Both the position numbers and the translations under genes were made by a program. A stretch of DNA of 64,000 nucleotides from Xanthomonas sp. CFBP 8443 (lineage in GTDB: Bacteria > Pseudomonadota > Gammaproteobacteria > Xanthomonadales > Xanthomonadaceae), in the NCBI RefSeq assembly GCF_025666195.1, contig NZ_CP102592.1, positions 3,348,001 to 3,412,000 of the forward strand, written 5' to 3'. The notes beneath the pieces are model-generated. The model was not told the DNA's origin. It was given only the letters and a program-made list of their open reading frames with translations, and did not search any database. Within the stretch, counting starts at the first letter, position 1; each line of letters starts with the position of its first letter. Of the stretch, positions 59,681-63,216 are shown one piece after another.

Positions 59681-61876
59681 ATGAACTACATCGGCAAGGA
59701 AATGCGCCGCGTCGACGGCTACGCCAAGGTCACCGGCAAGGCGCGCTACGCGGCGGAGTTCCAGATCCCGCACCTGACCCACGGCTACATCCTCACCAGC
59801 ACCATCGCCAAGGGCCGCATCGTGCGCATCGACACCCGCGCCGCCGAGGCCGCGCCGGGGGTGATCAAGGTGTTGACCCATCTGAATTCGGTCAAGCCGG
59901 TGTCCGACGAGGTCAAGAAGAAGGGCGAGGACCTGTCGTTCCGCGCCCTGGTCGACGAGCGCATCCATTTCAGCGCGCAACCGATCGCGGTGGTGGTCGC
60001 CGCCAGCTTCGAGCAGGCGCGGCATGCCGCACGGCTGATCCAGGTGGACTACGCGGCGGAAACGCCCAGCACCGATTTCGTGGCGCTGCTCGACCGGGCC
60101 TACGATCCGACGCCGAAGGAATCGCCGCCGCCGCGCGGCAACCCGGCCGCCGCGTTCGCCGCCGCGCCGGTCCAGGTGCGGGCCGCGTACACGATGCCGA
60201 TCGAGCACCACAACCCGATGGAGCCGCACGGCGGCATCGGCTACTGGATCGGCGACACGCTGACCGTCATCAACAAGAGCCAGAACGTCCACCAGGATCG
60301 CGAGCAGCTGGCCGGCTATTTCGGCATTCCCACCGAGCGGGTCAACGTGGTGTCGCTGTTCGTCGGCGGCGCGTTCGGCTCGTGCCTGCGCCCGAACTAC
60401 TACACCTTCCTGCTCGGCGCGGTGTCCAAGGCGGTCGGCCGCCCGGTCAAGATCGTCTACACCCGCCGGCAGATGTTCAGCGGCCACGGCTACCGCCCCT
60501 ACTATCGGGTGGAATTGGACCTGGGCGCCGACGCGGCCGGCAAGCTGCAGGCGATCCGCTACCGGCACGTGCTCAACACCTCGCGCATCGAGGCGTTCAA
60601 CGAAGCGTTCCTGCGCAACGCGCGCTCGCTGTACGCCTGCCCCAACGTCGAGGACCGCTTCGAGGTGGTCGACACCGACCTGCCGACGCCGCAGGCGATG
60701 CGCGCGCCCGGCGCGATCAGCCAGATGTTCGGCATCGAGTGCGCAATGGACGAACTGGCCCACGCGCTGAAGATGGACCCGTTGCAGCTGCGCCTGGCCA
60801 ACTACGCCGAGACCGATCCGGAAACCGGCAAGCCGTTCTCGAGCAAGGCGCTGCGCGAGTGCTACCGGCTCGGTGCCGAGACCTTCGGCTGGAGCAAACG
60901 CAACCCCGAACCGCGCTCGATGCGCGATGGGCGCCTGCTGGTCGGCTGGGGCATGGCCACCGGCACCTGGCCGGCGATGCAGATGCCGGCGCTGGCGCGA
61001 GTGCTGCTCAAGGCCGACGGCAGCGCCGTGGTCGGCAGCGCCACCGCCGACATCGGCCCCGGCACCTATACGGTGATGACCCTGATCGCCGCCGAGTACC
61101 TGGGCATCGACGCCAAGCGCGTGCAGTTCGAACTCGGCGACACGCGCCTGCCGAAGGCGCCGTCGCAGGGCGGCTCGTGGACCACCGCCAGCGTCGGCAG
61201 CGCGATCCACGGCGCGGTGCGCGAGATCCGCGGCAAGCTGCTGGAGCTGGCCAGGCAGGACGGGCAATCGGCGTTCAGCGGCCTGGACGTGGACGCGGTG
61301 GAACTGGCCGATGGCCGGCTGCGCCCGACCGGCAAGCCCGAGGCCGGCCTGGACGTGGCCAAACTGATGCGCCAGCACGGCCTGCAGGAACTGGAGGTGG
61401 TGCACGAGTCCAAGCCCTCGGCCGAGCGCCAGAAGTACGCCACCGCCGCGCACGGCGCGCAGTTCATCGAGGTCAAGGTCGATCCGGACACCGGCATGGT
61501 GCAGGTGACCCGGGTCATCGAGGCCACCGCCTGCGGCAAGATCATGAACCCGCTGACCTCGCACAGCCAGGAGATCGGCGCGGTGGTGATGGGCATCGGC
61601 ATGGCGCTCAGCGAAGGCACCGAGGTCGACCACCGCTACGGGCGCATGCTCAATGCGTCGCTGGCCGACTACCACGTACCGGTCAACGCCGACGTGCAGC
61701 AGATCGAAACCATGTTCTTGGAGGAGCAGGACCGCATCGTCAACCCGCTCGGGGTCAAGGGCATGGGCGAACTGGGCATGGTCGGCATTCCCGCGGCGAT
61801 CGCCAACGCCGTGTTCCATGCCACCGGCAAGCGCATCCGCGAACTGCCGATCACCCCGGACAAGCTGATCGGCTGA
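59681..61876 (+). CDS. paoC: Molybdenum hydroxylase large subunit (PaoC type)
   Basis: A 731-residue catalytic subunit. Molybdopterin-binding segments include VGGAFGSCLRPNYYTF, PQAMRAPGAISQMFG and SQGGSWTTASVGSAI, and the catalytic Glu lies in GVKGMGELGMVG near the end. It oxidises aromatic aldehydes in known PaoABC enzymes; the substrate here is inferred. It is 22 bases after paoB and closes the operon. Confidence 0.9.
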   Translation: MNYIGKEMRRVDGYAKVTGKARYAAEFQIPHLTHGYILTSTIAKGRIVRIDTRAAEAAPGVIKVLTHLNSVKPVSDEVKKKGEDLSFRALVDERIHFSAQPIAVVVAASFEQARHAARLIQVDYAAETPSTDFVALLDRAYDPTPKESPPPRGNPAAAFAAAPVQVRAAYTMPIEHHNPMEPHGGIGYWIGDTLTVINKSQNVHQDREQLAGYFGIPTERVNVVSLFVGGAFGSCLRPNYYTFLLGAVSKAVGRPVKIVYTRRQMFSGHGYRPYYRVELDLGADAAGKLQAIRYRHVLNTSRIEAFNEAFLRNARSLYACPNVEDRFEVVDTDLPTPQAMRAPGAISQMFGIECAMDELAHALKMDPLQLRLANYAETDPETGKPFSSKALRECYRLGAETFGWSKRNPEPRSMRDGRLLVGWGMATGTWPAMQMPALARVLLKADGSAVVGSATADIGPGTYTVMTLIAAEYLGIDAKRVQFELGDTRLPKAPSQGGSWTTASVGSAIHGAVREIRGKLLELARQDGQSAFSGLDVDAVELADGRLRPTGKPEAGLDVAKLMRQHGLQELEVVHESKPSAERQKYATAAHGAQFIEVKVDPDTGMVQVTRVIEATACGKIMNPLTSHSQEIGAVVMGIGMALSEGTEVDHRYGRMLNASLADYHVPVNADVQQIETMFLEEQDRIVNPLGVKGMGELGMVGIPAAIANAVFHATGKRIRELPITPDKLIG

Positions 61877-61950: not shown

Positions 61951-62014
61951 TGTAGGAGCGGCTTCAGCCGCGACCGTGGCCTTGCCGATAAGCCCGGTCG
62001 CGGCTGAAGCCGCT
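61951..62014. repeat. REP palindrome split by the IS110 element
   Basis: The left arm TGTAGGAGCGGCTTC and most of the right arm, ending GAAGCCGCT at 62014. The missing end CCTACA appears at 63167-63172, directly after the element. Joining them restores the standard REP. Confidence 0.9.
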
Positions 62015-62049
62015 TGTGTCTTACGCAGGTCTATCGTTGAGGTGAGAGC

Positions 62050-62192
62050 GGAGTGCGGCAGGCCGCTAAGTCGCAGTGCCTCACGAGCACGAGTAGGAGT
62101 CAGGGCCGCCGCACTCCGTTTCTCCTGCCAGCAAGCCCGAACAGTTGCCTGAGCCGCGAGCTCGAACCTACAAGCATGGGCATCGGCAGGAG
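62050..62192 (+). ncRNA. Predicted bridge RNA of the IS110 element
   Basis: Two stem-bounded loops lie between the left end and the transposase start. Loop 1: outer stem GGAGTGCGGC (62050-62059) with GCCGCACTCC (62108-62117), inner hairpin GTGC/GCAC (62076-62090). Its left side GCCGCT (62062-62067) equals the target, and its right side GTAGGAG (62093-62099) is complementary to CTCCTAC of the target. Loop 2: outer stem CTCCTGCC (62122-62129) with GGCAGGAG (62185-62192). Its left side ACAGTTGCCT (62141-62150) matches 9 of 10 bases of the element's right end ACAGTTGACT, and ACAAG (62170-62174) is complementary to CTTGT at the left end. This is the target-loop/donor-loop layout described for IS621. 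Confidence 0.8.
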
Positions 62193-62227
62193 ATCTCTCG
62201 TCCCTGAGTTTACTGCGGAGAACGCCT

Positions 62228-63157
62228 ATGTCTATGCAGCGCTTTGTCGGGATCGATGTCTCCAAGGCCGAGCTGGTCGTTCACGTCTTGCCGGATGGGC
62301 TGACCTGGACTCAGGCCAATACGCCCGAGGGGCACGCCGGCCTGGCCGAACGCCTGGCCTTGCTGGGATGCGAGCGGATCGTGCTGGAGGCCAGCGGTGG
62401 CTACGAACGGGCGATAGTGCAGGTGCTGACGCAGGCTGGTCTGCCCGCGGTCCGGCTGCCTGCCCAGCGTCCTCGTGCGCTGGCGCACGCGTTGGGACTC
62501 AAGGCCAAGACCGATGCTCTGGATGCGCGGTTGCTGGCTGTGGCGGCCCAGTGCATCCACGCTCAGCCCACCGCGGTGCTCCCTGCGCCGCTGCAGGCGC
62601 TGCGCGAACTGCTCCACCTGCGCAGCACCCTGGTCGCCCAGCGCGATGCGCAGCGCCGCTGCATGGAGCACGTGACCTGCAAGGCGGTGCGCGACCAATG
62701 GCTCGAGGTGATCGCGCTGCTGCAGCAGCGCATCTGTAACGTGTCCCGGCAGATCGCACAGGCGGGGGCTGCCTGCTCCAGCCTGCCCAAATTGCCTGGG
62801 CTTGGCCCGATCCTGCGCGCCACCCTGGCAGCCCGGCTCCCCGAGCTGGGCACCGTGCATCCGCGCAAGATCATCGCCTTGGTCGGGCTGGCGCCGTTCA
62901 ATCGCGATAGCGGCCGCTGGCGCGGCCAACGCCGCATCCAGGGCGGACGCGCCGACGTGCGACGAGTGCTGTACATGGCCACGTGGGCCTCCATCCGCAC
63001 CGGCTCCCCGCTGTCACACACCTACGCCCGCCTGACCGCCGCAGGCAAACCCGCCAAGGTCGCCATTGTCGCGTGCATGCACAAGTACCTGCGATGGCTC
63101 AATGCCATTGCCCGAGACCAGGCGCCTTACGCTCCTCCGGAGATCGCTTCTGCATGA
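62228..63157 (+). CDS. IS110-family transposase (bridge RNA-guided recombinase type)
   Basis: A 309-residue recombinase. The N-terminal RuvC-like DEDD domain has Asp10 (FVGIDVSKAE), Glu54 (IVLEASGGYE) and Asp96/Asp99 (KTDALDARLLA). The C-terminal Tnp domain carries the catalytic Ser228 in NRDSGRWRGQRRIQGGRADVRRVLYMATW. All landmark residues are intact, so the element may be active. The start at 62228 or ATG 62234 are both possible. Confidence 0.92.
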   Translation: MSMQRFVGIDVSKAELVVHVLPDGLTWTQANTPEGHAGLAERLALLGCERIVLEASGGYERAIVQVLTQAGLPAVRLPAQRPRALAHALGLKAKTDALDARLLAVAAQCIHAQPTAVLPAPLQALRELLHLRSTLVAQRDAQRRCMEHVTCKAVRDQWLEVIALLQQRICNVSRQIAQAGAACSSLPKLPGLGPILRATLAARLPELGTVHPRKIIALVGLAPFNRDSGRWRGQRRIQGGRADVRRVLYMATWASIRTGSPLSHTYARLTAAGKPAKVAIVACMHKYLRWLNAIARDQAPYAPPEIASA

Positions 63158-63216
63158 CAGTTGACTCCTACAAGGGATTCGCTCGTCCGTAACCAGCGCC
63201 CCAGCTTCCTTGGCCG

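Follow-up and report, generated by a model that had tools for sequence, protein, structure and literature searches.

The window analysed here is a stretch of 64,000 nucleotides from Xanthomonas sp. CFBP 8443 (contig NZ_CP102592.1, positions 3,348,001 to 3,412,000), and it contains an insertion sequence of the IS110 group whose features are collected in Table 1. The recombinase frame is open and has the domain composition of the group, i.e., DEDD_Tnp_IS110, a DEDD RuvC-like domain, and Transposase_20 with the catalytic serine. With the NCBIfam model "IS110 family RNA-guided transposase", the protein scores 179 bits, above the cut-off of 140, and it can be aligned with the transposases of ISCro4 (E 5.5e-22) and IS621 (E 4.2e-20), both of which have been solved. 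Its residues D10, E54, D96, D99 and S228 align with the catalytic D11, E60, D102, D105 and S241 of IS621, as these are named in passages of PMC11208158. An earlier note, made from the letters of the window alone, had assigned the element to IS110, and the domains, the RNA-guided transposase model, the IS621 alignment and the five catalytic residues all bear this assignment out. As is typical of the group, the right non-coding end is short, with seven bases between the stop codon and the core, and the left one is long.

The limits of the element in the earlier note, with the CT core at 62013-62014 repeated at 63165-63166, proved correct. A search with the left flank gave matches in 15 genomes of the genus among 19 others searched, and the five junctions that were read among the 15 relative loci (L135, L137, L140, L141 and L145) have GAAGCCGCTCCTACA without an insert, both flanks matching. 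The genome itself (G000, 5.24 Mb) has five copies of the element, not counting short matches elsewhere (L006-L008) that were left out of the copy set. All five are inserted at the same point of a REP sequence, between AAG[C/T]CG-CT and CCTAC, and they share one left end and one protein, with DNA 100% identical. Empty GAAGYCGCTCCTACA sites number 356 in this genome (171 forward, 185 reverse), and the reversed-pattern control gave 0. The five copies and the five empty relatives thus point to site-specific insertion at a short core with no further duplication, another trait of the IS110 group.

Several further observations concern the surroundings of the element. In G058, a related element (L066, protein about 73% identical) is found about 100 bases or less from the left-flank match (L148); its orientation relative to the flank is opposite, which points to a separate insertion event in that REP region. 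Genome G208 of the same genus has gene fragments only (L048, L059, L068; 9 matches, none of full length). Just 5' of the insertion point, the REP hairpin (62000-62013, plus strand) resembles a terminator and runs into the T-rich left end; it might insulate the element against transcription from its surroundings. Two Rfam hits to mir-598 at 60976-61057 (23.3 and 21.8 bits, compared to the gathering score of 69) were dismissed as chance.

Table 1. Features of the IS110-group element and of its insertion site (positions are those of the window)
Feature	Position	Strand	Remark
Left-flank REP	61951-62012	+	arms 61951-61975 and 61996-62012
Left target AAGCCG	62007-62012	+	final six bases of the left-flank REP
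Left CT core	62013-62014	+	basis includes the empty site in relatives
IS110-group element, including one CT core	62015-63166	+	1152 bp
Long non-coding left end (LE)	62015-62227	+	
TATCGT, -10-like half of predicted junction promoter	62032-62037	+	
Rfam RF02234 sX15 match, predicted antisense RNA	62036-62202	-	45.8 bits, cut-off 55
Predicted bridge RNA	62042-62201	+	extent of R1 model match, 173.6 bits; true transcript ends may differ
Closing stem P0	62044-62048 with 62195-62199	+	
Target-loop stem P1	62049-62059 with 62108-62118	+	perfect, 11 bp
GCCGCT, left target guide of the earlier note	62062-62067	+	covariation support absent, p 0.28
AAGUCG, left target guide (LTG) backed by covariation	62068-62073	+	hairpin-proximal
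CA opposite the CT core	62074-62075	+	after LTG
Hairpin within the target loop (GTGC...GCAC)	62076-62090	+	
GUAGGAG, right target guide (RTG)	62093-62099	+	complementary to CT-CCTAC
UC, predicted handshake guide	62100-62101	+	complementary to donor GA before the core
Donor-loop stem P2	62122-62129 with 62185-62192	+	perfect, 8 bp
ACAGUUGCCU, left donor guide (LDG)	62141-62150	+	
ACAAG, right donor guide (RDG)	62170-62174	+	complementary to CTTGT of the left end
Promoter-like site TAGACA-N16-TAAACT	62207-62234	-	for the predicted antisense RNA
IS110 recombinase	62228-63157	+	309 aa
Right end GACAGTTGA	63156-63164	+	overlaps the recombinase stop codon
TTGACT, -35-like half of predicted junction promoter	63161-63166	+	
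Right CT core	63165-63166	+	
Right target CCTAC	63167-63171	+	

The bridge RNA region and its opposite strand

The left end folds into two loops, with a minimum free energy of -75.5 kcal/mol for 62041-62203 (z -3.50; 0 of 200 shuffles as good). A longer fold into the gene, 62039-62245, was less striking (z -1.79; 12 of 200 shuffles). Conservation of the fold was analyzed among relatives. Of 77 distinct loci, L049 and six more could not be parsed at one end and are absent from the 71 parsed elements; these 71 reduce to 30 distinct left ends, 29 of which entered alignment A1, L111 being set aside because of a left-end deletion. Some of the seven half-parsed loci re-entered the 92-record guide test described below via their readable end, and L111 was kept out of the guide tests as well.

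In A1, which was aligned without the structure, 89.9% of the cells are paired under the named structure, and double changes are seen in 13 of 36 pairs. Four of five covariation measures exceeded all 500 shuffles, the fifth (further pair types) being reached by 87 of 500, and the donor stem is partly misaligned in this alignment (76.8% paired). In A2 (78 matches, 64 distinct rows), which was model-fitted to the structure and, like any such alignment, is biased towards it, 94.2% of the cells are paired, double changes occur in 32 of 36 pairs, and the covariation score is 0.446 compared to 0.137 for shuffled and at most 0.066 for slid pairings. A conserved two-loop RNA structure in the left end, a bridge-RNA trait of IS110 elements, is therefore backed by both fold and covariation. 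The earlier note had drawn two closed loops on perfect stems of 8-10 bp, and had counted a lack of stem conservation among relatives as evidence against them. Every string and stem that it named is present where it placed them, and the stems covary in both alignments. A class-wide search with the bridge model found left ends in nine genomes outside the bacterial family (L153-L161), with an IS110 gene match in eight of the nine loci; the ninth ends at a contig end.

When the two ends of the element are joined in silico, TTGACT stands 17 bp ahead of TATCGT. When spacers from 10 to 26 were compared over the 29 left ends, the mean match to TATAAT peaked at 17 (3.66 of 6), followed by 15 (2.83). 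At the -35 place, the joined form reaches 4.17 of 6 and the integrated form 0.90. The bridge-RNA promoter is thus predicted to be complete only when the two ends are joined, as passages of PMC11208160 report for IS621, which assembles a promoter across its joined ends. By analogy, the bridge RNA would be made mainly from the circle.

Among Rfam families, the region is matched best by sX15, an sRNA of Xanthomonadaceae, on the opposite strand (62202-62036, E 1.3e-5), at a score under the gathering cut-off, so that the window sequence is not a member of the family by that measure. Hits to sX15 are found in 35 of 198 genomes of the bacterial family, above the cut-off in 21. At 30 sX15 loci (L009-L038), an IS110 gene match lies opposite to the sX15 strand in 22; among the other eight, L026, L027, L030, L031 and L032 end with the contig about 60 bases or less from the match, and L020, L024 and L025 belong to genomes in which DEDD_Tnp_IS110 has no match. 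Our own bridge model, applied to 29 of these 30 loci, matches opposite to the sX15 strand in 26 (not in L024, L025 and L032); L037 has an extra weak match of 28.6 bits on the sX15 strand itself. On plasmid pXCV183 of X. euvesicatoria 85-10, the strain from which sX15 was presumably named, an sX15 match of 150.9 bits, above the cut-off (L150:1401-2330), runs antisense to a bridge-type left end that is followed by the first IS110 codons. A search for the IS110 gene beyond these codons gave no further match at this locus, which is a relic left end. Thus, Rfam sX15 is the strand opposite these bridge RNAs.

In the 381 bp of the window that were scanned, the sole promoter-like site is the one on the minus strand, and the sX15 match starts four bases beyond it. 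All 29 left ends retain the TA...T pattern of its -10; the -35 is not conserved. The sX15-like RNA would likely be an antisense partner of the bridge RNA. Alternatively, sX15 could be misoriented in Rfam, the Xanthomonas transcript being the bridge RNA itself. The structure folds on both strands, and G-U versus A-C cells, taken as a sign of which strand's structure is under selection, give no more than a weak lean to the bridge strand (64 versus 37 in all rows, 34 versus 26 in the best 58). We nevertheless consider a misorientation unlikely, given that a promoter-like site with a conserved -10 stands at the sX15 start and that Asr9 of ISPpu9 is antisense by S1 mapping in passages of PMC8450116.

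Decay is evident in the wider family. Besides the X. euvesicatoria plasmid relic, genomes G064, G118 and G019 have sX15-type hits and no DEDD_Tnp_IS110 match, and G175 has 13 sX15-type hits but four DEDD_Tnp_IS110 matches. In two loci of G175 (L012 and L125), a bridge-type left end and a right end are about 490 and about 440 bp apart, which leaves no room for a complete gene, and these may be non-autonomous or decayed copies. If the relics and the short derivatives were representative, the copies in the window genome would be dead members of a family that no longer moves. This is very improbable for five copies identical in DNA, with an open frame and the catalytic residues kept, and with empty sites in relatives; the element is a genuine bridge-RNA element of known kind and is probably active.

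Guides and their DNA partners

The donor loop can be read against the element's own ends. The earlier note had reported ACAGTTGCCT at 62141-62150 as a 9 of 10 match to the right end, and it is there as described. Among the relatives, the ACAGTTG of the left donor guide is paired with an AGTTG right end in 32 of 33 cases, a comparison that says little because this guide hardly varies. The right donor guide is more informative: among 43 distinct bridge RNAs for which the left end could be read, those with CTTGT ends hold ACAAG in 27 of 27 cases, those with CTTAT ends hold ATAAG in 10 of 16, and none of the 43 is crossed. The six remaining CTTAT-ended elements (L009, L012, L019, L020, L022 and L125) have neither motif. 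L023 has an attC-type target guide together with a CTTGT end and an ACAAG guide, both unlike its group. The complementarity of ACAAG to CTTGT, also in the earlier note, thus extends to covariation with left ends.

In IS621, the handshake guide occupies RNA positions 81-82 and is said in passages of PMC11208158 to pair with the donor after strand exchange. In our set, donor position 7 can pair with the first handshake base throughout (78 of 78 elements; 17 of 17 distinct combinations, with UC found with donors ending in GA and C with donors ending in TG), and the second base pairs in 13 of the 17 combinations. The handshake base of the donor loop, identified by eye as the C that follows the right donor guide, pairs with the G of REP, not with the C of attC-type sites.

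For the target loop, we compared guides with targets in 92 element records of relatives, using 20,000 shuffled pairings as the null model. The hairpin-proximal 13 nt matched the six bases left of the core with a mean of 4.98 (20 distinct regions), compared to 4.08 for shuffled pairings (sd 0.16, max 4.78). The right guide had a mean of 5.77 (12 regions), compared to 4.80 (sd 0.21, max 5.65). Both the left and the right target guide thus covary with their targets at p<=5e-5, although the elements are mutually related and such permutation p values overstate independence. For GTAGGAG (62093-62099), which the earlier note had taken as complementary to the target from the core onward, covariation comes in addition to the complementarity itself. 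Because the bases opposite the CT core are CA, the T of the core would be unpaired. Judged by covariation, the loops appear to pair with target and donor DNA, which is the trait expected of an IS110 bridge RNA. Outside the bacterial family, the left-guide test gave 14 of 120 permutations with five loci only, i.e., those of the nine (L153-L161) in which a left boundary of the CTTGT type could be read.

Targets of the relatives vary and include several REP types, attC-like sites (GCCTAACGCCT-GAGTTAAGCC), and others. The GCCTAACGCCT-GAGTTAAGCC sites resemble integron attC sites in their pattern. They hold elements from other genera of the bacterial family (L010, L011, L013-L023, L026, L127-L129, L132 and L133), whose guides UAACGCCU and AAUUCAG match these sites. 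Guide and target often change together. For example, most of this group have UAACGC with TAACGC, and L013 and L127 have UAACAC with TAACAC; L019 and L026, with UAACGC at TAACAC sites, form a G-T wobble and are an exception to the paired change. Further cases are L018 (guide AACUCAG, target CTGAGTT), L114, L120 and L125 (CGGGAGAG with CTCTCCCG), and L030 (GGUGCG with GGTGCG). Left-guide matches are poor in L113 and L028 (3.5 of 6), L029 and L031 (4.0), and the shortened L125 (3.0). The comparison supports a REP-specific guide in the window element and guide change over the wider family. The further claim of the earlier note, a reprogramming for the host's own REP sequence, is not supported: elements of three other Xanthomonas species (G134, G206 and G186) carry the same guide, and this REP is shared across the genus.

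A single mix of REP variants is available to related elements whose left guides differ, which amounts to a natural test of bridge-RNA rules. The U of AAGUCG in the clade of the window element pairs fully with the T of one REP variant and wobbles with the C of the other. In G134, 8 of the 243 empty sites are AAGTCG and 235 are AAGCCG; its six insertions are at AAGTCG (four), GAGTCG (one) and AAGCCG (one). The ratio of 4:1 insertions compared to 8:235 empty sites gives a Fisher p of 1.6e-5 (2.6e-4 once an insertion with CCCAC on its right side is removed). In G134, a single base of the guide is thus reflected in the choice of site. Over the four genomes with the AAGUCG guide, AAGTCG accounts for 5 of 12 AAGYCG insertions (0.59 expected, P 1.6e-4); the window genome alone has no excess of AAGTCG insertions (1 of 5, compared to 21 of 370). 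Elements with CCG guides (G153, G202, G006, G058, G204 and G207) have 0 of 45 insertions at AAGTCG, where few are expected anyway. In G117, with the guide AUGUCG-CU, all four copies read (L037, L112, L130 and L131) are at GTCG, and among its empty G[G/T]CGCTCCTACA sites GTCG makes up 26 of 132.

These results bear on two other explanations. According to the first, which corresponds to the ISPpu9/Asr9 model, the left end is merely a regulatory 5' leader of the recombinase mRNA together with an antisense RNA, the REP being chosen by the protein or through the REP hairpin and the guide matches being by-products. An sX15-type antisense strand is indeed present, and for ISPpu9, passages of PMC8450116 describe a leader of 244 nt, the antisense RNA Asr9, and a rise in transposition when Asr9 is increased. 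Such a leader would not be expected to have loop positions that track targets and ends across relatives, or a site preference that follows the guide at a single base; in addition, burial of the ribosome-binding site by the bridge fold was looked for in the window and not seen, the site lying in a separate weak hairpin. We therefore give the leader explanation very little credence, and targeting by the protein only is rejected because of the guide covariation. The second, the placement of the left target guide at GCCGCT in the earlier note, is hardly credible: the string is present, matches AAGCCGCT in 6 of 6 bases including the CT core and fits L113 similarly by eye, but the stem-proximal 13 nt to which it belongs match targets at the shuffled level (3.81 in 15 regions, compared to 3.75), it predicts C where G134 insertions favour T, and the G117 elements read CAGCCCGA there, unlike their targets. 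The hairpin-proximal AAGUCG is the left target guide supported by the data, correcting that placement.

A proposed cycle of the element

With the anatomy, the insertion into REP, and the covariation of the RNA and of its guides with DNA as described above, the locus is very probably an IS110-group insertion sequence whose left end encodes a predicted bridge RNA that would link the joined ends of the element with a REP for the recombinase. What the earlier note had read from the window, an IS110 element with predicted bridge RNA loops readable against both a REP target and its own ends, holds, apart from the place of the left guide and the reprogramming for the host.

Transcription, the circle, recombination and the antisense role are inferred, and following IS621, we envisage these steps: (i) the element would excise as a circle, joining the TTGACT of the right end to the TATCGT of the left end 17 bp on and so completing the bridge-RNA promoter; (ii) the target loop would pair with the REP AAGCCG-CT-CCTAC via AAGUCG on the left, beside the hairpin, and GUAGGAG on the right, and the donor loop with ACAGTTG and CT-TGT of the joined ends; (iii) the DEDD/Ser recombinase would exchange strands at the CT core, after which the UC handshake guide would pair with the donor GA; (iv) in the integrated state, the junction promoter would be split, and transcription from the minus-strand promoter would yield an antisense RNA, similar to sX15 and Asr9, that spans the bridge RNA in full.

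Tentatively, and with slightly more doubt than belief, we extend this to a general proposal: the bridge RNAs of this IS110 branch would have a dedicated full-length antisense RNA (on record already, outside this context, as sX15 in Xanthomonas and Asr9 in P. putida), the two RNAs forming a life-cycle switch, with antisense RNA made from its own promoter when the element is integrated and bridge RNA only from the circle, and Ssr9 would be a bridge RNA whose end junction is built in. To a specialist, the antisense family would be the greatest surprise. The analysis corrects the reading position of the left guide in such elements. It also connects sX15, an orphan among the sRNA families of Rfam, with the opposite strand of a bridge RNA, so that chromosomal quieting of bridge RNAs becomes a question for laboratory strains and for strand-specific RNA data that already exist.

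Comparison with known systems

The closest parallel is IS621, an IS110-group element of E. coli. As described in passages of PMC11208160 and PMC11208158, it shares with the window element the DEDD/Ser recombinase, the CT core, the REP target, the long left end, and a two-loop RNA with target and donor guides; a joined-end promoter and handshake guides are also common to both, predicted in our case. The window element, of about 1152 bp in this genus, differs in having its own REP sequence and guides. According to the same passages, the right target guide of IS621 has four bases, compared to seven here, and a 5' stem-loop precedes its target loop, whereas our model has the closing stem P0 instead. 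The sX15-type antisense strand finds no mention in those passages of the IS621 papers. The Rfam family RF02234 itself covers the same stretch on the opposite strand, with the window match below its cut-off.

The seekRNA elements of the IS1111 group (ISKpn4, ISPst6 and ISPa11) share the RNA-guided choice of attC or REP sites; their non-coding region is downstream of the gene, in contrast to the upstream position here (passages of PMC11187229).

ISPpu9 of P. putida KT2440 is likened here by description, from passages of PMC8450116. It shares with the window element membership in the IS110 family, insertion into REP, a structured leader, and an antisense RNA over that leader, the last being predicted in our case. 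Asr9 is about 180 nt long and very stable; that more of it raises transposition in P. putida speaks against a simple brake role. Most ISPpu9 copies also have a second RNA downstream, Ssr9, for which the right end of the window element is too short. In a passage of the IS621 paper, the small RNAs of ISPpu9 are thought to modulate recombinase expression. In the one limited collection of literature searched, a link of sX15, Asr9 or ISPpu9 to a bridge RNA or seekRNA was not found. Ssr9, a sense RNA, anneals to Asr9 and is located behind a junction of boxes that resemble ends (PMC8450116, same passages). By analogy with the window element, Asr9 can be read as the antisense of a bridge RNA, and Ssr9 as a bridge RNA made from a built-in junction.
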